NCBI GenBank assembly: GCA_027491195.1
Contig: JAIXWQ010000009.1
Coordinates: 1-64,000 of the forward strand
Source: Cytophagaceae bacterium
Lineage (GTDB): Bacteria > Bacteroidota > Bacteroidia > Cytophagales > Spirosomataceae
Reading direction: 5' to 3'
DNA: 64,000 nt
The notes beneath the pieces are model-generated. The model searched no databases, was not told the DNA's origin, and was given only the letters and a program-made list of their open reading frames with translations. Below, in pieces: positions 50,433-60,506 of the stretch. Made by a program: the position numbers and the translations under genes. The stretch's first letter is position 1, and the number at the start of each line of letters is the position of its first letter.

Positions 50433-50972
50433 CTATTTTTTTTCAGCGGCTTGTTTAGCAGCCATTTCATCTACGACAAATTTTGTATCAAAGAAATTAA
50501 TCTCTTGCGTCTCTTTGTCATTCTCCCATTTTAATGCCTGGTGAATATTCGTAGTAATATCTTTACCTGAATAACGGCCTTTTGCATGCCAAGTTCCCCA
50601 CACATTTGTCCAGGTTTCACCGTTATTAATCTTCAAAGTGACTACGCGTAAGAACGTAAAATGCGGATTCTCCCAAAAAGACTTATTAGCCGCAAAGTCT
50701 GCCAAATACGCTTTTTTACCTTTGATGTCTGGAATCGTATCACTTGGATAAAACACCGCAATATCATCCGCTAATTCATCCCACTTATAGGTCGTGTCAC
50801 CAGACATCGCCGCTTTAATCTGGTTTTGAATAATTTGCGATTTTTCATCAGTAGAAGAGAAGGTGCCTCCTAATGAATCTGCGCTTGCTTCTGTAGAAGC
50901 GGCGGAATCTTGCTTCTGTCCGCAAGAGAATAAAGCTGTTGCAACAGCCATGATCATGATTATTTTTTTCAT
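50433..50972 (-). CDS. SnoaL/NTF2-like lipoprotein
   Basis: A 179-residue lipoprotein (MAVATALFSCGQKQ, lipidated Cys17). The mature part has an NTF2/SnoaL-like pattern: a helix with IQNQIKAAMSGDTTYKWDEL, AVFYPSDTIPDIKGKKAYLA, then beta strands with TNVWGTWHAKGRYSGK and IHQALKWENDK. It is similar in layout to the lipoprotein at 59982-60506 and shares with it an upstream 25-base inverted repeat. It lies eight bases downstream of the gene at 50981. Function is unknown. Confidence 0.72.
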   Translation of the reverse strand: MKKIIMIMAVATALFSCGQKQDSAASTEASADSLGGTFSSTDEKSQIIQNQIKAAMSGDTTYKWDELADDIAVFYPSDTIPDIKGKKAYLADFAANKSFWENPHFTFLRVVTLKINNGETWTNVWGTWHAKGRYSGKDITTNIHQALKWENDKETQEINFFDTKFVVDEMAAKQAAEKK

Positions 50973-50980
50973 CGGTATGT

Positions 50981-51754
50981 TTATTTAGTAGATAAGGCAA
51001 TTTTAGTAATCATCGTAGCAGTCATCGTTCTTTTAACCGTTACTTGCTTCATGAATTCTTCTGGAGAAATGCCTAAAGCTTTTGGAATAGCTTTGTAATA
51101 GCTGTCTGAGAATTGATCTAGGTTAGATAATTTTTCCACACTTTGAACTGTAGTATAATTAAACTTCACCTCATCGGAAGAGGGATAAAGATTTTTATAC
51201 AAAGACCAGCCAGAAATATTTCCAGCAGCTACTCTTTCCTCGTGTACTTTTTGAACTTTTGTTTCAAATGCTTCGTAAGCAGCAGCATCTGATACTTTCA
51301 TCATATCAAAAATGATATAATGATCTTTGTTCGTGCCGGGGTTTGTACCCGTAATTTTCTTACCTATGGAATGGCGAAGAATGGTTTGTGTACTTATAGT
51401 AGCGGCTGCTAACTTCTTAAGACCTGGATCTGTTTTTAACAAACTTCCAAATAATTCCATCGGATAAAGGTGGATTTTATCTAAATCGGAACCCCAGTTT
51501 ACGGTCATGTAATCGAAATCAATTCCTTCTGATTTGATGTTGTTATAAGGAACATACATGGCCCATCCACCGATAAGACCGGCCGCTTTACGTGCCTCGT
51601 GAATGGGAAGATATTGCTTCTCGATTGCGATGGCATCATCCATCGTTTTGCCAGGTTGTAATTTGTGATACGCTACCATGGTGTAACGCGTTTGTGCGAA
51701 AGTCGCTGCAGATACGAGCAGGACAAGGGCTAATGAGGTGAGTAGTTTTTTCAT
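50981..51754 (-). CDS. exported protein of unknown function
   Basis: The start is set at 51754 (MKKLLTSLALVLLVSAATFAQ, a clean signal peptide); an open extension to 51850 crosses the inverted repeat and is unlikely. The 257-residue product contains two similar halves: RYTMVAYHKLQPGKTMDDAI with GLIGGWAMYVP, and HYIIFDMMKVSDAAAYEAFE with GNISGWSLYKN. This suggests a duplicated ferredoxin-like (Dabb/NIPSNAP-type) domain. Function is unknown. It is followed closely by a SnoaL-like lipoprotein gene. Confidence 0.72.
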   Translation of the reverse strand: MKKLLTSLALVLLVSAATFAQTRYTMVAYHKLQPGKTMDDAIAIEKQYLPIHEARKAAGLIGGWAMYVPYNNIKSEGIDFDYMTVNWGSDLDKIHLYPMELFGSLLKTDPGLKKLAAATISTQTILRHSIGKKITGTNPGTNKDHYIIFDMMKVSDAAAYEAFETKVQKVHEERVAAGNISGWSLYKNLYPSSDEVKFNYTTVQSVEKLSNLDQFSDSYYKAIPKALGISPEEFMKQVTVKRTMTATMITKIALSTK

Positions 51755-51824
51755 TTTTTTAGGTGTTTGATTTCTCGAACCTAAAAATATTCCGCTCCAA
51801 AGAAAAAAATAGATGATTCTAAGA

Positions 51825-51849
51825 TGTTCCAAAATCCGAAAAGGGAACA
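51825..51849. repeat. 25-base inverted repeat, copy 1
   Basis: Half-sites TGTTCC (51825-51830) and GGAACA (51844-51849) flank a 13-base centre containing AATCCGAAAA. It matches the copy at 59876-59900 at 24 of 25 positions. It lies eight bases after the cytochrome-gene stop and 70 bases upstream of the ATG at 51754. Confidence 0.88.
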
Positions 51850-51856
51850 AATCTGC

Positions 51857-52849
51857 TTAGTGCGGCAAAGATGAAATCCAATTCCGGACTAGTTCAACTC
51901 CCTCGTGATGAATGAGTTGTCTTCCTAACTCTGGCATCATCACGCCTGGATCGCGGGAGGCCATTCGATAGGGTAAAATACTCTGATCAGGCTTGCCTGG
52001 AACGATGTCATAACTCAGATTTCCGGAACCACGACCCGCTGCCACTGGCGGTTTTAAGAACCCGTAGGCCGTCCGATCTTTTGAATTCCAATCCAAATAA
52101 AGGCCAGAAGATCTGGCCGGACCCGTCGCATTATGGCAGTGCGCACAGTTAATATCGAGGTAGGCTTTCACACGATCATCGAGTGATGCAGATGCGTCCG
52201 AATAATTGACGAGGGCGGGAATGTGGTCTTTAGGCAAGCCCTTTAATAGCCCCGCTGTTTCCCATTTTTGTAATTGATGTCCATCGTTTAATTGTCTAAC
52301 GGACGGACCAATGGGAGTCATTTCGCCGGAGCGCTCGTGGCAACCTTTGCACTGGTTCATATTGGGGACTTGGTACACAAAGGATTGCTTTTTACCGGAG
52401 CCATCTATCCAGGCCACTTCATCACTTCCGCCGGCCACTTCGAGTACGGCCTCAGTTTGTTCTTTGTTCCAAATGTAGGGTAGGGCCACCCAACCTTTAG
52501 CCTCGTGCAATAAAACACGAGTCTCCATTAATCGACGACCCTTCTTCGGATTACGTTCATCGATAGGATAATAAAAAGTTTTAACGATGGCCGTGCCCAC
52601 GGGAAATTGTAGAACTGAATCGGGATTGTAGGCTACTGATTGCCCTGAAGGAAGGCGAACGAAACGTAATTTAGATGCATAATCAGAGAAAAGAGGGGAA
52701 TTCAACGCATAGGGCATGACGCCATCGACGGGGATTTGGTCCTTCAAAAGACCTTTGAAAAAGCCATAATCAGAGAGGTTTTCTCTGTAATTTGACTCCG
52801 CCGAAACTAGGCCAAAAAAAGCTAAAAATAATAGGCAGAATATCCGCAT
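51857..52849 (-). CDS. SO2930-type diheme c-type cytochrome, exported
   Basis: A 330-residue protein with signal peptide MRIFCLLFLAFFGLVSA and two haem-binding motifs, CKGCH (167-171) and CAHCH (235-239). The N-terminal 160 residues (SDYGFFKGLLKDQIPVDGVM, YALNSPLFSDYASK, FPVGTAIVKTFYYP) match the SO_2930 family, in which a beta-rich domain precedes two haems. In that family the gene is usually next to a parallel beta-helix protein, as here (one-base TAATG overlap). It is likely a periplasmic redox protein with an unknown partner. Confidence 0.88.
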   Translation of the reverse strand: MRIFCLLFLAFFGLVSAESNYRENLSDYGFFKGLLKDQIPVDGVMPYALNSPLFSDYASKLRFVRLPSGQSVAYNPDSVLQFPVGTAIVKTFYYPIDERNPKKGRRLMETRVLLHEAKGWVALPYIWNKEQTEAVLEVAGGSDEVAWIDGSGKKQSFVYQVPNMNQCKGCHERSGEMTPIGPSVRQLNDGHQLQKWETAGLLKGLPKDHIPALVNYSDASASLDDRVKAYLDINCAHCHNATGPARSSGLYLDWNSKDRTAYGFLKPPVAAGRGSGNLSYDIVPGKPDQSILPYRMASRDPGVMMPELGRQLIHHEGVELVRNWISSLPH

Positions 52850-54036
52850 TAGAATTTCACCGATTTAACGTTTTCTAAATCACAGTCGAAGAGATCTTTG
52901 CCTTGCTTCAAACCTTTGAAATTATTTTCTGCATCGAGGAAAGCCGTACTTTGGTTGACATTATCTTTCACACAAATCGAATAATGTAAGGGGTATTTTC
53001 CGTCGGTTCCGACCTTTGCTGGATTCAAAATACCATCATAAACCACCGCTGGAACTTGGCGTCCGAAGCGTAAAACGAAGCGGTACATTTTACCAAAACG
53101 GCTGTCCATAGGCACGCGTCTCGGATTACGTTCAAAGGTATTGTGGTGGATCGAAACGGCCGTCGGATAAGGATCGTATTCCTTGTCCTTAATCGCATTT
53201 TCGGTCATGTAATAGGAGATAATCGCGACACCAATCGTCGCGTGATTGATGATTTGGTTTTCGAAAAACTCGACATTACTCGTCGCTAAAACCATCATCC
53301 CCGTACCCTTCGGCACGTTGCCTACGATGTTTCCTTTCGGTGCGAAATTCGCTAGATTATTTTCTTTCACTAAGTTGTGATGGACGCGAACGTGACCGCC
53401 CTTTTTTTGAACTAAATCAGGCAAGTCAAACACCAAAATTCCGCCCGTATTTCCGATCGCCTTGTTATTGTACACATCTGCATACAGGGAATTTTCGATC
53501 TCGATGCCGGCGACGTTTTGGTAAGCTTCTGAATTGCGAACGATAATATGTTTCGATTGCCCCACGTAAATACCTGCATCCGATGCCCCGATGGCGATGC
53601 AAGAATCAATCAACACATTCTCGCATAAAACAGGATAGAGCGCGTAAGAGCCATTCGTCGCCTTCGGTTTTCCCGTCCAAGCGGCTTTTATTTTTCGAAA
53701 CGTAATGCCTTTCACATTCATCGTTTTGATCAAATCCCCCTTCGAATCCTCCGTCGTCATGTTTTCGATGACGATGTTTTCGCAGTTTGAAACTTTAATC
53801 CCCTCGGCTCCCTGGGTTTGACCTTTGAAACTAAGGATGGTTTGATCGATCCCTTTCCCCCGTAAGGTAATGTTCTTTTTACCTTCCAAAGACAAGCTTT
53901 TCGTCAGCTGAAAACGTCCCGCCTCGATCTCAATCGTAGAGCCATCCTCGGCTAAAATCAGACGTTTCTGTAGGTTTTTTTCGAAGTCCGCTTGGCCTAA
54001 GGCGGTGAAGCAGAGTAAAAATAAAAGGTATTTCAT
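52849..54036 (-). CDS. exported parallel beta-helix protein
   Basis: A 395-residue protein with signal peptide MKYLLFLLCFTALGQA. The body has repeating beta-helix turns rich in NI.I.N and G.Y: LRGKGIDQTILSF, NCENIVIENMTTED, YVGQSKHIIVRNSEAYQNVA, IEIENSLYADVYNNKAIGNT. This is the right-handed beta-helix (NosD/pectate-lyase-like) fold, which may bind or cleave a polysaccharide or cap a cytochrome partner. The following cytochrome gene overlaps by one base, supporting joint function. Confidence 0.85.
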   Translation of the reverse strand: MKYLLFLLCFTALGQADFEKNLQKRLILAEDGSTIEIEAGRFQLTKSLSLEGKKNITLRGKGIDQTILSFKGQTQGAEGIKVSNCENIVIENMTTEDSKGDLIKTMNVKGITFRKIKAAWTGKPKATNGSYALYPVLCENVLIDSCIAIGASDAGIYVGQSKHIIVRNSEAYQNVAGIEIENSLYADVYNNKAIGNTGGILVFDLPDLVQKKGGHVRVHHNLVKENNLANFAPKGNIVGNVPKGTGMMVLATSNVEFFENQIINHATIGVAIISYYMTENAIKDKEYDPYPTAVSIHHNTFERNPRRVPMDSRFGKMYRFVLRFGRQVPAVVYDGILNPAKVGTDGKYPLHYSICVKDNVNQSTAFLDAENNFKGLKQGKDLFDCDLENVKSVKF

Positions 54037-54041
54037 CCGGG

Positions 54042-54338
54042 TTACATTAATTGTTCGGTATCGATCTCCATAAAATCCTCCACTAAAGGTATAAAAAAGT
54101 CTTTCACGAAGGCATCATGCTGAGGATGAATCGAATAGGCCTGGTAAATTTCGTTCGAAGCAAACTCCATGGAAAAGCCGTATTTAAACTTGTTTTTTGT
54201 GCTGGTTTGGCGAGAAACTTCCATTTTTTCTACCCCATTTATGTCTTCCAAAGCCTTTAAGGCAACGAAGAATTCGTGTTTCTGCGATTCTGAAACCGTG
54301 GGTTTGAAATTAAAAATGCCTGCGTGTCTGATGCTCAT
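54042..54338 (-). CDS. Dabb domain protein, cytosolic
   Basis: A 98-residue single-domain Dabb protein (SIRHAGIFNFKPTVSESQKH, FSMEFASNEIYQAYSIHPQH, FVKDFFIPLVEDFMEID). There is no signal peptide, in contrast with the two Tat-type paralogues at 26656-27045 and 58867-59253. Its start overlaps the DinB-like gene by four bases and it precedes the beta-helix gene by five bases. Function is unknown. Confidence 0.83.
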   Translation of the reverse strand: MSIRHAGIFNFKPTVSESQKHEFFVALKALEDINGVEKMEVSRQTSTKNKFKYGFSMEFASNEIYQAYSIHPQHDAFVKDFFIPLVEDFMEIDTEQLM

Positions 54339-54790
54339 ATTTTACCGTATTTAATTAGTAATGCCATTTGTCCAGCATGATAAGCCGTGTGAGAAACAAT
54401 TCTACCCAAAGCCTCTGCCTTTGTTTTTGTCCCAAACTCCTTCGTTGTAATCACCTCCGACCAAACCGAATCCGCTTGTATGGCTAATGTGTTTTGCAAG
54501 GTATTAAAAGACTCCGAAACATAGGCTAACAAAGCGGGTAAATCCGTCCACTCTCCCGTATCTTGACCTGAAATGACCGTTTTAGCGGTAACATGAACGG
54601 ATGAATTAGCGAACACATTCTTCGAAAATAATAACTCCACATCCCCAATGTGTCGAATTAAAAAACCCACCGAATTAGGCGAATCTCCTAACTTCTTTTT
54701 TAGATCCTCCGATTGCAAAGTTTTCAACTGGTTCGAAAATCGCGTACGAGCCTCGATCCATTGTGCGACAAAATGAGCTGTTGTTTCCAT
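54335..54790 (-). CDS. DinB superfamily protein
   Basis: From the ATG at 54790 (METTAHFVAQWIEAR) the protein has 151 residues; in-frame ATGs at 54811 and 54844 would lengthen it. It is a four-helix bundle with putative metal-binding histidines in SVGFLIRHIGDVE and in SHTAYHAGQMALLI. DinB/YfiT proteins in Firmicutes act as metal-dependent thiol transferases or hydrolases; the substrate here is unknown. The ATGA overlap places it at the head of a minus-strand operon. Confidence 0.8.
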   Translation of the reverse strand: METTAHFVAQWIEARTRFSNQLKTLQSEDLKKKLGDSPNSVGFLIRHIGDVELLFSKNVFANSSVHVTAKTVISGQDTGEWTDLPALLAYVSESFNTLQNTLAIQADSVWSEVITTKEFGTKTKAEALGRIVSHTAYHAGQMALLIKYGKI

Positions 54791-54878
54791 ATGGTAATAT
54801 AGTAATTTCATAGACTTCTTGAGTAGTTTATTAGCAAAAAGCACCTTTATCTAGTAAATTGAGGCAAAATCTAAACCT

Positions 54879-55388
54879 ATGAAAAAAATTCTCCTCCTTA
54901 TCCTTATGAGCATTTCCATATCCCAGGCCCAAACCGCGCCTGCACTCGAGTATTTCTGCGACTTAAAAGTGAAGCTTGATCCAGCACTCATTGTGGGTGA
55001 AACACCACACGGAACGCGCCGCATTATTCCCATCATAGGTGGTACTGTAGAGGGCCCTAAAATTAAAGGCGAAGTGTTGAATGGAGGAGCCGATTGGCAA
55101 GTGTTGCGTACCGATGGGGTGACCGAGTTAGAGGCGCATTACCAATTTAGAACGGATGACGGGACCTTGATTTATGTGAAAAATACGGGAATTCGTGCGG
55201 CTACACCCGAGATTGCAGCGAGAATAGCGAAGGGCGAAAAGGTAAATGCGAACGAATATTATTTCCGAGCAACGCCTAAATTCGAGGCGCCTAAAGGCAA
55301 ATACGATTGGGTCAATAATAGCCTATTTGTTTGCACGGGAGAGCGTTTGCCGGATTACGTGTTGATTCGTGTTTGGAAAGTCATGTAA
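54879..55388 (+). CDS. exported DUF3237 family protein
   Basis: A 169-residue protein with signal peptide MKKILLLILMSISISQAQ. The DUF3237 pattern is clear: EYFCDLKVKLDPALIVGETP, RRIIPIIGGTVEGPKIKGEV, GADWQVLRTDGVTELEAHYQ, and FRATPKFEAPKGKYDWVNNS. The family has no assigned activity. It is the first gene of a run of six genes with gaps of five bases or less, and it is divergent from the DinB gene. Confidence 0.85.
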   Translation: MKKILLLILMSISISQAQTAPALEYFCDLKVKLDPALIVGETPHGTRRIIPIIGGTVEGPKIKGEVLNGGADWQVLRTDGVTELEAHYQFRTDDGTLIYVKNTGIRAATPEIAARIAKGEKVNANEYYFRATPKFEAPKGKYDWVNNSLFVCTGERLPDYVLIRVWKVM

Positions 55389-55393
55389 TTCTT

Positions 55394-56566
55394 ATGAGAG
55401 CGATACAAGTCCTGATTATTCTGATCTGTTTTCTGTGCAATATGCTGGATGGCATGGATGTACTCATTATTTCCTATACCGCTCCGGCGATTGCGAAGGC
55501 TTGGAGTATTTCCCCGGCGAACTTGGGAATTGTTTTTAGTTCTGGCTTGGTCGGAATGACGGTGGGAGCGATCTTTTTAGCGCCTTTGGCGGATCGTTTT
55601 GGGCGTAAGCCATTGATGATTTTAGCCGCGCTGATTATGGGGTCTTGTATTTATTTGACCTCTTTTGCGACCGACATTAATGTGTTAATGATCTACCGAT
55701 TTATTAGTGGACTTGGTATCGGAACGATGATGGCGAGTACGGCGGCGATTACCGCGGAATATGCGCCTGTTTCGACACGGGATTTTTGGGTGAGTACGGT
55801 GGTGGCGGGCTATCCGGTGGGTGCTGTTTTAACGGGAATTTCATCGGCTAAAATTATCGCAGAAAGTGGTTGGGAGCACCTGTTTCAACTAGCTGGAATT
55901 GCGACGTTTTTAGTCGTGCCTATCTTATTATTTTTATTGAAAGAGTCGGATGAATTTAAGGCCAAAGCAAAGCCAGAAGATGCGAAGCTCAGTGCCCTTT
56001 TTACGGCTGAATATAAGTGGAGCACCTGGCAGCTTTGGGGTGCTTTATTTTTGTCATTTACCACGCTTTATTTTTTGATGAACTGGATTCCAAAACTAGC
56101 CACTAATGCAGGCCTATCGATGGAATTAGCCATTTATTCAGGGACGATTTTTAATCTAGGTGCCATCGTCGGTATTCCGGTTCAGGGCTATTTTTCGAGT
56201 CGTTTTGGATTGAAAAAATCAATTGGGACCTTGCTTTTGATAACTGCCATTTTGCTAGGAATTTTTGGTCTATTTTCTGGGTCCAATTTAATCCTAGTTG
56301 TCTTGTTTTTCCTCGGGTTCGGGGTGCAAGGAAGCTTCGTCGGTTTGTATGCCGTAGCGGCTCGCATGTATCCCACTGCTTTCCGTTCTACCGGTGTAGG
56401 TTGGGCCATTGGTATGGGACGTTTAGGCGGAATTATTGGGCCTGTTTTGGGTGGATTATTAGTGGGCTTAGGTTTTGGGATGGCACAAAGTTTTATCTTC
56501 TTTGCTCTTCCTTCCTTTATCGCTGGACTTATTACTTTAAAAATTAGCGCCAAAACCATATCCTAA
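55394..56566 (+). CDS. MFS transporter of the aromatic acid:H+ symporter type
   Basis: The start is set at 55394 (MRAIQVLIILICFLCNMLDG), five bases after the DUF3237 stop; the frame is open further upstream inside that gene. About 390 residues form twelve membrane segments. CNMLDGMDVLIISYTAPAIA and LADRFGRKPLMI are characteristic of AAHS transporters (BenK, PcaK), in which the DG(x)D motif in helix 1 is essential. Substrates of relatives are aromatic or other organic acids. Its stop codon and the serC ATG overlap (TAATG). Confidence 0.85.
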   Translation: MRAIQVLIILICFLCNMLDGMDVLIISYTAPAIAKAWSISPANLGIVFSSGLVGMTVGAIFLAPLADRFGRKPLMILAALIMGSCIYLTSFATDINVLMIYRFISGLGIGTMMASTAAITAEYAPVSTRDFWVSTVVAGYPVGAVLTGISSAKIIAESGWEHLFQLAGIATFLVVPILLFLLKESDEFKAKAKPEDAKLSALFTAEYKWSTWQLWGALFLSFTTLYFLMNWIPKLATNAGLSMELAIYSGTIFNLGAIVGIPVQGYFSSRFGLKKSIGTLLLITAILLGIFGLFSGSNLILVVLFFLGFGVQGSFVGLYAVAARMYPTAFRSTGVGWAIGMGRLGGIIGPVLGGLLVGLGFGMAQSFIFFALPSFIAGLITLKISAKTIS

Positions 56567-57627
56567 TGCGCAAACACAATTTCTTTCCCGGACCTGCTAC
56601 CTTACCTTTTGAAGTCATCCAAGAGGCCGCTGCTGGTTTAGTTGATTACCATGGAATGGGCGTTTCGATTGCGGAAATCAGCCATCGCTCCCCCATTTTC
56701 ACAGATTTATTAGACGAGGCAAATGCCCTTGTGAAAAAATTATACGGCCTATCGGATGAGTGGGCGGTGCTTTGGCTACCAGGTGGCGCTTCAAGTCAGC
56801 TAACCGTGGCGCCGATGAACTTAACAGAACCATCAGATAAGATCGCTTTTGTGGACACGGGCTTTTGGGCAGATCGCGCCATCGAAGCAGCAGCTAACGA
56901 AGCAAATGCTTTTTATTTAGCTTCCTCTAAAGACACAAATCACGATCGAATTCCGAAGATTACAGATGTCCAAGGTGCGCGTTATTTACACGTAGTTTCG
57001 AACGAAACCATCGACGGAACTCAGTACCATCAATTCCCTGAAGTGGATGTTCCCTTAGTGGCAGACATGACATCCGATTTTCTTTCTAGGCCTTTGCCGA
57101 TGGAGAAGTTTGGGGTAATTTTTGCATCTGCCCAAAAGAACTTTGGGATAGCGGGAATTACCTGTGTTTTGGTCAATAAAAACGTATTGCCAGATAAAAG
57201 CAGTCGGAAGATTCCGAAGATATTTGATTACCATACACACATCGCAGAGAACTCGTTGTACCATACGATACCAACCTACCCCGTGTATGTGGCGCTATTA
57301 ATGTTGCGCTATATCGATAAGCAAGGTGGCTTAGCAGAAATGCAACGACTAAGTCAGGTGAAGTCTTCGCTAATTTATAGCGAAATTGATCGCAATCCGC
57401 TGTTACAAGGAATCGTGGTGACCGAAGATCGCTCCGTAATGAACGCTTGCTTTAAAAGTCAATCGCTCGAAATGGATCAGCAAATCCTGCGCTTTTTAGA
57501 GCAAAACGATATCGTAGGAATTAAAGGATTTCCTACCAAAGGAGGGTTTAGAGCCTCCATTTACAATGGCCAGTCAGTGGAAAGCGTGGCACATTTAGTT
57601 GAATTATTACAAAATTTGCCGCTATGA
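56566..57627 (+). CDS. serC: phosphoserine aminotransferase
   Basis: A 353-residue class V aminotransferase. The N-terminus NFFPGPATLPFEV, GMGVSIAEISHRS, WLPGGASSQL, and the PLP lysine Lys191 in ASAQKNFG identify SerC. GFRASIYN at the C-terminus is the conserved end. It converts 3-phosphohydroxypyruvate to phosphoserine, and also acts in pyridoxal phosphate synthesis in some bacteria. No serA is nearby; instead it lies in an operon with a transporter and an FAD monooxygenase, which is unusual. Confidence 0.93.
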   Translation: MRKHNFFPGPATLPFEVIQEAAAGLVDYHGMGVSIAEISHRSPIFTDLLDEANALVKKLYGLSDEWAVLWLPGGASSQLTVAPMNLTEPSDKIAFVDTGFWADRAIEAAANEANAFYLASSKDTNHDRIPKITDVQGARYLHVVSNETIDGTQYHQFPEVDVPLVADMTSDFLSRPLPMEKFGVIFASAQKNFGIAGITCVLVNKNVLPDKSSRKIPKIFDYHTHIAENSLYHTIPTYPVYVALLMLRYIDKQGGLAEMQRLSQVKSSLIYSEIDRNPLLQGIVVTEDRSVMNACFKSQSLEMDQQILRFLEQNDIVGIKGFPTKGGFRASIYNGQSVESVAHLVELLQNLPL

Positions 57628-58862
57628 AAATATTGATTGCTGGAGGTGGAATTGGGGGGTTAGTGACGGCGATGCGCTTGCATCAAGCTGGTTTTGAGGT
57701 GAAGGTTTTTGAGTCGGTGGAAGAAGTAAAACCACTGGGTGTAGGGATTAATTTATTGCCTCATGCGGTGCGCGTTTTAACAAATATCGGTCTATTAGAT
57801 AAGGTTGCCGCCATCGCTGTGGAGACGAAAGAGCTGGTTTATGCGAATCGTTTTGGGCAATTTTTTTGGTCTGAGCCTCGGGGTAAATTTGCTGGATATC
57901 GCTGGCCACAATTCTCGATTCATAGAGGGAGGTTTCAAGTGATGCTTTGGGAAGAAACGCTAAAAACAATAGGCACAGAAAACCTGAAAACGAATTGTCA
58001 CTTACAGTCATTTGAAGAAAAAGGGGACAAAATCACAGCCACTTTTATCAACAAAGAAACGGGAGAAATCATCGCAAAAGAAGAAGGCGATATTTTGATA
58101 GGTGCGGATGGAATCAACTCCGTTTTGCGTCAAACCTTGTATCCAAACGAAGGCGACGTCGTCTTTTCAGGCAACATTTTATACCGCGGAACTGCGCTAA
58201 TGAAACCTTATAAAACGGGTTCTTCGATGGCCATGATCGGTTCCATGAAACAGAAAATGGTCATCTATCCGATAGGCGAGCCCGATGCAGAAGGGAACCA
58301 AGTCATCAATTGGGTGGCGAACGTTCGAGAGCCAGAAGGCGCGAAAATTACGGTAAGAGATTGGAATCGAAAAGTCGAAAAAGGTCCCTTGCTAGCGCTT
58401 TACAAGGACTGGAAATTCGACTGGATTAATGTGCCAGAAATGATTGAAAAAACAGATGGAGGGATCTTCGAATTCCCCATGTCAGATCGCAATCCATTAG
58501 ACAAATGGTCCTTCTCTCGCGTCACACTTTTAGGAGATGCAGCACATCCGATGTATCCAATCGGATCGAATGGGGCATCGCAAGCGATATTAGATGCAGA
58601 TGCTTTGGCATTAGCTTTACTAGCTGAAAAAGATGTCATGAAAGCGCTGCAAAATTACGATGCGGAACGTGTTCCTGCGACCGCAAAAGTGGTGTTACAA
58701 AACCGCCAAAAAGGTCCCGACTTTATTATGGACTTAATGGAGGAACGCTTCCCAGCTGGGTTTAGCGAGGAAGAAATTCCACACGAGGAACTGCAACAAA
58801 TTATGAATCAATATAAACAAGTGGCAGGTTTTGATATTCAAAGCCTGAACGCAAAATCGTAA
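57624..58862 (+). CDS. FAD-dependent monooxygenase (salicylate hydroxylase-like)
   Basis: A 412-residue group A flavoprotein monooxygenase. The FAD loop is AGGGIGGLVTAMRLHQAGF (residues 6-24), the DG motif is LIGADGINSVLR, and the GD motif is LLGDAAHPMYPIGSNGASQA. Relatives hydroxylate aromatic acids or similar ring compounds with NAD(P)H and oxygen. The substrate-binding region is not diagnostic. Its ATG overlaps the serC stop by four bases, and the Dabb gene follows after four bases. Confidence 0.9.
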   Translation: MKILIAGGGIGGLVTAMRLHQAGFEVKVFESVEEVKPLGVGINLLPHAVRVLTNIGLLDKVAAIAVETKELVYANRFGQFFWSEPRGKFAGYRWPQFSIHRGRFQVMLWEETLKTIGTENLKTNCHLQSFEEKGDKITATFINKETGEIIAKEEGDILIGADGINSVLRQTLYPNEGDVVFSGNILYRGTALMKPYKTGSSMAMIGSMKQKMVIYPIGEPDAEGNQVINWVANVREPEGAKITVRDWNRKVEKGPLLALYKDWKFDWINVPEMIEKTDGGIFEFPMSDRNPLDKWSFSRVTLLGDAAHPMYPIGSNGASQAILDADALALALLAEKDVMKALQNYDAERVPATAKVVLQNRQKGPDFIMDLMEERFPAGFSEEEIPHEELQQIMNQYKQVAGFDIQSLNAKS

Positions 58863-58866
58863 AACT

Positions 58867-59253
58867 ATGAAAAGACGTCATTTTATTGTCTCAGCTGGCT
58901 TATTAGCAAGCACAGGAACTGTTAGTGCAGCCGCAGCCGCTAAAAAACCTTTATTGCACCACGTGTTTTTTTGGTTAAATAATCCGGCTTCAGAAGAAGA
59001 CAAGCAGCAATTAATCAAAGGACTGAAAGCCTTAAAAGGAATTCCGACGATTAAAGAAATCCACATCGGAACTTTGGCTTCGACAGAAAAACGCGAAGTG
59101 GTTGACACGAGCTGGGACGTTTCTGAATTGATGTTTTTCGATGACGAGGCTGGCCAAAAAGTCTACCAAGATCACCCTATCCACGTCGATTTCGTAAAGA
59201 ATTATGCGCACTTGTGGAAGAAGGTAATCGTGTACGATTCAGTAGATGCCTAA
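58867..59253 (+). CDS. Dabb domain protein with Tat-like signal, second copy
   Basis: A 128-residue protein. MKRRHFIVSAGLLAS has a twin-arginine motif (RRHF) and a hydrophobic stretch up to VSAAAAA. The mature Dabb domain (LLHHVFFWLNNPASEEDK to WKKVIVYDSVDA) is clearly paralogous to that at 26656-27045, which shares HHV.FW..NP and HLW.KV.V.DS. It lies in the DUF3237-MFS-SerC-monooxygenase operon. A role in handling a reactive product in the periplasm is only a guess. Confidence 0.83.
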   Translation: MKRRHFIVSAGLLASTGTVSAAAAAKKPLLHHVFFWLNNPASEEDKQQLIKGLKALKGIPTIKEIHIGTLASTEKREVVDTSWDVSELMFFDDEAGQKVYQDHPIHVDFVKNYAHLWKKVIVYDSVDA

Positions 59254-59871
59254 GTGAAAGTACACATTCTAAATGGGGATTGTTTGCAGTATGTCTTGCA
59301 AGCAGAAAATGCGCTCGTCGTTCGAGAAATGCTGGTGGAAGGCCCATTAAAGGCTGATTCTGAGGAGAGCTTTTTTCATTTGCGTGCAGACTATTTAGAA
59401 AAAACATACGGTATTCCTGCATCAGAATACCAGCAAAAAACGGTGTCAGAATTCAAAAAAATGCACCACATTCCGAAGCATTCGGAGGTATATCTGTGGT
59501 TCGATTTTGACCTTTATTGCTTCGTACATTTATTGTTCATCATTGAATTATTACAAGCGGATAAAACGCTACAATTGTATGTAGTTCGTCCGCTCCGAAA
59601 AAGAAAATTCCGGATTTGGCGCGGATTTGATCTGCATACAAAAGATGATTTGATGCAGGCATTCTCACAAAAGACACCGCTTTCTAGAAAGGATATTCAA
59701 GCTTTTAGACACGTTTGGAAGCGACTAGGCAAAAAGGGTTCTGGACTAGATCATCGCTTAGTCCCTTTCCTTCAGAAACACCTACAGGACTATCCTCAAC
59801 TTGAAAAAGCAACGAAAATCGAGGCTCGCTGGGGCTTAACGGAAGGGCAAATTACCCGCATTCTTTCCTAA
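59254..59871 (+). CDS. DUF1835 family protein, GTG start
   Basis: A 205-residue protein starting with GTG directly after the TAA stop of the Dabb gene (59251-59253), with no gap. The N-terminus KVHILNGDCLQYVLQAENAL and ALVVREMLVEGPLKADS are the DUF1835 hallmarks, and YLWFDFDLYCFVHLLFIIEL is also typical. The family has no known activity. The direct juxtaposition argues for translation by re-initiation. It is the last gene of the operon. Confidence 0.82.
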   Translation: MKVHILNGDCLQYVLQAENALVVREMLVEGPLKADSEESFFHLRADYLEKTYGIPASEYQQKTVSEFKKMHHIPKHSEVYLWFDFDLYCFVHLLFIIELLQADKTLQLYVVRPLRKRKFRIWRGFDLHTKDDLMQAFSQKTPLSRKDIQAFRHVWKRLGKKGSGLDHRLVPFLQKHLQDYPQLEKATKIEARWGLTEGQITRILS

Positions 59872-59875
59872 AATT

Positions 59876-59900
59876 TGTTCCCAAATCCGAAAAGGGAACA
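59876..59900. repeat. 25-base inverted repeat, copy 2
   Basis: Arms TGTTCCC (59876-59882) and GGGAACA (59894-59900) flank an 11-base centre AAATCCGAAAA. It differs from copy 1 (51825-51849) at one position only, which makes this copy the more symmetric one. It starts four bases after the DUF1835 stop and ends 81 bases before the ATG at 59982. There is no T tract. Confidence 0.88.
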
Positions 59901-59981
59901 TATGCGTGTTTCAATTACAGTTAATAGCGATTAATTGTACGTTCTTTGGTCATATTTTAACTCTTTTAAATAACCAAAGAA

Positions 59982-60506
59982 ATGAAAAAAATTGTTCTAT
60001 TATTCGTCCTTGCGGGAAGCATTTTCGCTTGTACTAAAAAGGAAGACGGTGCAGCAGCAGCAACTACTTCAACTGACCCATCTGTAGTTTTAGCTGGAGT
60101 TGTAATCGATACATCTGCTAACGTAGGCTTAGTTATGAAAGCGATAACGGCGATCGAAGCGGGTGACTCAGCTACCTACCGTTCAACTTATTCTCCAGAT
60201 GTCGTTTTCCATGATAACCTAGATTCGATGGGAATCAATGAGAACATGCAAATGTTTAAAATAATGGCAGAAAAAGGCATTAAATTAAAAATTGAAATGG
60301 GGCCAGTTTGGGAAAATCAATTTGATAAGCCTTCCAAGAAAAAGGGTTACACAAACTATGTGATGAGTAAGTGTAAATTCATTTTTACAAGGGGAGAAAA
60401 GAAATCGGAAATGGTCGTTTTCGCAGTAGATGCGATCAGAGATGGTAAGCAAGTAGAAGAGTGGTTACACTATGACAGAAGTGCTTTTGTTGAAATCTCT
60501 AAGTAA
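59982..60506 (+). CDS. SnoaL/NTF2-like lipoprotein, second copy
   Basis: A 174-residue lipoprotein with a cleavage site at FACTKK (Cys17). The mature domain has an NTF2-like start (VGLVMKAITAIEAGDSATYR) and VVFHDNLDSMGI, then GYTNYVMSKCKF and QVEEWLHYDRSAF. It resembles the lipoprotein at 50433-50972 in signal, length and fold pattern, and both have the same inverted repeat 70-80 bases upstream of the first gene of their unit. Function is unknown. A strong terminator follows. Confidence 0.75.
   Translation: MKKIVLLFVLAGSIFACTKKEDGAAAATTSTDPSVVLAGVVIDTSANVGLVMKAITAIEAGDSATYRSTYSPDVVFHDNLDSMGINENMQMFKIMAEKGIKLKIEMGPVWENQFDKPSKKKGYTNYVMSKCKFIFTRGEKKSEMVVFAVDAIRDGKQVEEWLHYDRSAFVEISK

Follow-up and report, generated by a model that had tools for sequence, protein, structure and literature searches.

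The window, the whole stretch of DNA analysed here, comprises 64,000 nucleotides (C3:1-64000) of a 2.49 Mb genome, 98% complete, belonging to a freshwater bacterium of the genus Aquirufa (Bacteroidota). Two palindromes built from TGTTCC and GGAACA arms, separated by 13 bases (N13), lie in it upstream of genes for exported proteins, and the features concerned are as follows.

50433..50972, minus strand: SnoaL/NTF2-like lipoprotein gene, 179 aa, the second gene behind copy 1
50981..51754, minus strand: gene for an exported 257-aa protein, predicted tandem alpha/beta-barrel (chlorite-dismutase/ABM-like; low-confidence model)
51776..51783, minus strand: inferred -7 element TAGGTTCG, 5/6 to TAnnTTTG, 41 bp after copy 1; TAGRTTTR in orthologs
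51825..51849, minus strand: putative operator copy 1 (N13), gene-strand TGTTCCCTTTTCGGATTTTGGAACA, kept genus-wide before close orthologs of the gene it precedes
59876..59900, plus strand: putative operator copy 2 (N13), TGTTCCCAAATCCGAAAAGGGAACA, kept in orthologs
59941..59948, plus strand: inferred -7 element GTTCTTTG, 4/6, 40 bp after copy 2
59982..60506, plus strand: SnoaL/NTF2-like lipoprotein gene, 174 aa, the putative target of copy 2

An earlier note on this DNA had placed the two copies at these coordinates, which are correct; the copies are identical at 24 of 25 positions and differ at position 7. Its distances to the next start codon, 70 bases for copy 1 and 81 for copy 2, were reproduced, as was its gap of 4 bases between the preceding stop codon and copy 2, while the gap at copy 1 is 7 bases and not 8. 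The asymmetric centre is indeed flipped between the copies relative to the downstream gene, and orthologs keep the orientation proper to each locus. The description of the 59982 product as SnoaL-like appears to hold for its fold: a low-confidence model has NTF2/SnoaL polyketide cyclases as its nearest structural neighbours; the protein itself scored 16 bits against PF07366, below the Pfam cut-off of 28.4, and all seven aligned sequences (59982 and six orthologs) matched that family, with a best E value of 9.3e-7. Between the two copies, positions 54879-59253 hold a compact run of genes, namely DUF3237, MFS transporter-like, aminotransferase-like, FAD monooxygenase-like and Dabb, of which Pfam confirms DUF3237 and Dabb only; the run looks like a small-molecule catabolic cluster.

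Scanning of the window returned the exact pattern at copies 1 and 2 only. The whole genome contains three exact TGTTCC-N13-GGAACA sites (C3:51825, C3:59876 and C11:261741) and three with a spacing of 14 (N14; C13:5529, C13:9701 and C13:18659), so that the N14 form and the other four sites lie outside the window. The chance expectation from base composition is about 0.11 per spacing (about 0.2 for N13 and N14 together; probability of six or more, about 1.4e-7). The backward-read control pattern had no match in the whole genome, and neither did the exact pattern at the neighbouring spacings N10-12 and N15-17. Sites with one mismatch showed no excess in this genome (8 against 7 in the control for N13, 6 against 4 for N14) and were left out of the site count; one of them, C6:113281, is found where another AraC gene ends and probably arose by chance. 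Across 38 genomes of the genus there were 57 N13 and 30 N14 matches, against about 6.5 at each other spacing. Several exact matches in other species are intragenic and were set aside; TGTTCCAACAAGAAATTTGGGAACA, present in four species with large genomes, is an example. In a search of 84,980 species genomes, matches to the TCCG-core form came only from Cytophagaceae/Bacteroidetes-type assemblies, that of the cultured Aquirufa antheringensis 30S-ANTBAC among them.

All six genomic sites lie upstream of genes for exported proteins of SnoaL/NTF2-like, alpha/beta-barrel or hydrolase type. Site C11:261741 is located between an exported SnoaL-like gene and a gene for a seven-transmembrane protein with a C-terminal AraC-type domain (7TM-AraC), and C13:18659 between divergent exported and lipoprotein SnoaL-like genes, adjoining a second 7TM-AraC gene. 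The gene behind C13:9701 encodes an exported SnoaL-like protein; C13:5529 precedes a gene for an exported alpha/beta hydrolase, with an exported 285-aa protein encoded in the opposite direction. Two more sites (L253:1237-1262 and L044:693-717) stand before genes of a related family of exported proteins, and the former adjoins a histidine kinase and response regulator.

Conservation was assessed in genes with readable upstream sequence, the window genes included, using orthologs at least 57% identical. A site was present 70-84 bp before the start codon in every gene of both families (eight for copy 2, seven for copy 1), and it was exact in 14 of these 15 promoters; in the exception (G018) the centre is degenerate and one base of the arms is mismatched. 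The sequence flanking the conserved sites has diverged among orthologs.

The -7 element recognised by the primary sigma factor of Bacteroidota has the consensus TAnnTTTG (PMC7366714). Over 30 target families, matches to this consensus peaked at an offset of 41 bp from GGAACA, with a family mean of 2.82 of 6 matches, whereas the best value over all offsets in 300 shuffles was 2.52. In families 1 and 10, 15 of 16 promoters have a 6/6 match at 40-42 bp, and in the copy 2 family TTTCTTTG occurs at offset 41-42 in most orthologs. The distance from site to element is equal for N13 and N14 sites, and the promoter-proximal half-site is therefore the fixed reference. Transcription is expected to start a few bases past the -7 element, which would place the centre of the site near -65, a position typical of activators, and the site itself upstream of the inferred start, outside its own transcript. 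A -7 element 41 bp (±1) downstream fits a dimeric activator centred near -65. Promoters of the copy 2 family carry TTTCTTTGG at the -7 element (59942-59949) and its mirror, CCAAAGAAA, directly over the start codon (59974-59982); the latter form is preserved in several copy 2 orthologs and replaced by CCAAAAAA in others. In some promoters of hydrolase and exported-protein genes (L231:5529-5554 and L188:3533-3557) a -7-like element at offset 40-41 ends about 3-5 bases before the ATG, and this short gap suggests leaderless mRNAs.

The gene that recurs beside the sites encodes the 7TM-AraC protein. Hydropathy analysis predicted seven transmembrane segments in the proteins of L155, L165 and L125, and the clade A candidate matched PF12833 (E 9.3e-15) and PF00165 (1e-9), in a genome with 15 HTH_18 copies over the cut-off. 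Clades A to C form one clade in the tree, and their second HTH helix, the recognition helix SRSKFIDAFK, is nearly invariant. Taking a linked site to be one with at most one arm mismatch, a site lies beside 24 of 30 clade A/B/C loci, exact in 19 cases, and beside only 1 of 37 other loci with an AraC domain, where none is exact (Fisher 1.3e-11); some clade B and C loci were taken as longer stretches, which biases the count slightly in their favour, but the counted sites lie beside the AraC genes. Among genomes carrying genes of clades A-D, 21 of 24 have exact sites, and among those that lack them 3 of 14 do, all three being incomplete assemblies; this co-occurrence and the linkage above are both inflated by shared ancestry, the genus having two branches. 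Spacing follows the paralog, as sites linked to clade A are N13 (7/7) and those linked to clades B and C are N14 (17/17). At clade A loci the site is 55-58 bp upstream of the start of the AraC gene itself. In clade B, and at most loci of clade C, the AraC gene and the lipoprotein gene beside it converge; here the AraC gene does not lie behind the site and is therefore linked to it without obviously being a target. At a divergent clade A site (L187:9741-9765, L037:1501-1525) a -7-like TATCTTG lies 21-23 bp off on the 7TM-AraC side, which could reflect autorepression. Clade E 7TM-AraC proteins (C13:62274 type) were rejected as the regulator because their recognition helix differs and no more than 4 of 12 loci have a site; these four sites may mean that other paralogs are involved too.

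The palindromes are very probably the operator of a dimeric activator. In the mechanism we propose, a homodimeric activator would dock, centred near -65, on the palindrome of 25 or 26 bp and bring RNA polymerase to the TAnnTTTG element 41 bp downstream. This activator would be a membrane-embedded one-component regulator of AraC type, with seven predicted transmembrane helices and a C-terminal DNA-binding domain (clades A and B), and the exported SnoaL/NTF2-like, alpha/beta-barrel and hydrolase proteins, a set presumed to bind small molecules, would be switched on by a signal that is probably membrane-soluble or extracytoplasmic. A clade A/B 7TM-AraC protein is, in our judgement, the probable activator. 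Against this scheme, no AraC gene adjoins the window copies, and the -7 element of copy 2 is weak (4/6, at offset 40). The proposal of the earlier note that one regulator controls both copies is likely rather than proven, as the sites could be shared by two close paralogs of this genome, the only clade A gene (C11:261821) and the only clade B gene (C13:19284). The spacing of the window sites suggests clade A; co-occurrence across genomes fits clade B slightly better.

A dimeric operator had been preferred to a terminator in the earlier note, and this view was supported by the conserved footprints, a dyad without covariation, the fixed 41 bp to the -7 element and the use of sites between divergent genes. 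The position of both window copies, 4-7 bases past a stop codon, would suit a terminator or attenuator hairpin ending the upstream gene, and the RNA of copy 2 does fold at -9.4 kcal/mol (z -2.7), but copy 1 folds no better than its shuffles (z -0.7), and the combination that marks an intrinsic terminator, a stable G+C hairpin with a T tract behind it, was not found at the window copies, which lack a T tract. Inner-base pairs numbered 85 in N13 sites (44.8 ± 5.2 in within-site shuffles, 93.5 predicted from column frequencies) and 72 in N14 sites (33.1 ± 4.6 and 77.0, respectively). Pairing above composition but not above column frequencies indicates a fixed dyad without compensatory changes, and one-sided changes in the arms persist. 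Because compensatory covariation is absent and the palindrome serves divergent promoters at several sites, it is neither a terminator nor a hairpin, and an RNA element, rejected on folding and on the lack of compensatory changes, is very improbable. A dispersed mobile repeat of REP or MITE type might account for a near-identical pair of copies 8 kb apart, and the earlier note had named a genome scan as the check; the scan found six diverged sites only, with other spacings empty, each near a start codon before exported-protein genes and kept at orthologous positions, and we give such a repeat almost no credence.

Within the operator reading, the regulator could be another, unlinked dimeric protein (LysR-, LuxR- or TetR-like), the 7TM-AraC genes being merely co-regulated neighbours. 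A centre near -65 and half-sites about two turns apart are compatible with several regulator families, the window sites have no adjoining regulator gene, and the clade A AraC genes, with a site 55-58 bp before their start, resemble targets themselves. Against this, the N13/N14 spacing tracks the AraC paralog, the clade B and most clade C genes are linked to sites yet convergent and not obviously targets, and no second regulator family recurs beside the sites; an unlinked regulator appears unlikely. A palindrome at any promoter can serve repression, which is plausible at the clade A AraC gene, where the site is 21-23 bp from a -7-like element; at the target genes, however, the sites precede the core promoter and keep a constant 41 bp to the -7 element, an arrangement typical of activators and poor for simple steric repression, and a repressor operator is decidedly improbable.

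The activator proposed here shares with AraC/XylS activators (PF12833), RhaR/RhaS included, the two-HTH AraC-type domain and activation from upstream of the core promoter. The operators of the AraC family are as a rule direct repeats, contacted twice by each monomer. A palindrome of 25 bp without a gap is unusual for this family and counts against the candidate; the present sites are dyads, without the direct-repeat half-sites of AraC/XylS-type operators. We do not hold direct repeats to be defining, because inverted AraC-family sites exist, RhaR/RhaS being AraC-family activators with inverted half-sites. In that system two 17-bp half-sites are separated by a spacer, whereas here the half-sites abut in a 25/26-bp palindrome and the candidate sensor consists of seven predicted membrane helices. 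Regulators of ToxR/CadC type carry a membrane part and a DNA-binding domain on one chain, as does the candidate, which differs in having an AraC HTH in place of a winged helix and a multi-span membrane part. The -7 element at the target promoters agrees with the published consensus for primary-sigma promoters of Bacteroidota (PMC7366714), to which an operator at a fixed upstream distance is added here. The open-access papers searched contained no known TGTTCC/GGAACA motif in Bacteroidetes, no membrane AraC protein with such a site and no operator described for membrane-bound AraC-type regulators.

The palindromes very probably mark a regulon that is new but of a familiar kind, and the membrane-bound candidate for its regulator is unusual. 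We see about an even chance that a family of 7TM AraC-type activators reads a gapless 25/26-bp palindrome through a paralog-specific N13/N14 code and controls exported SnoaL/NTF2-like proteins, a set that has expanded and whose members may bind or process the hydrophobic signal that the membrane domain senses. For membrane-bound AraC-type regulators, this analysis provides a concrete operator, a promoter geometry, a target list and named regulator candidates. It also places a large number of exported SnoaL-like proteins from widespread freshwater bacteria under one proposed control circuit, and their function can thereby be tested jointly with the signal in cultured species such as Aquirufa antheringensis.
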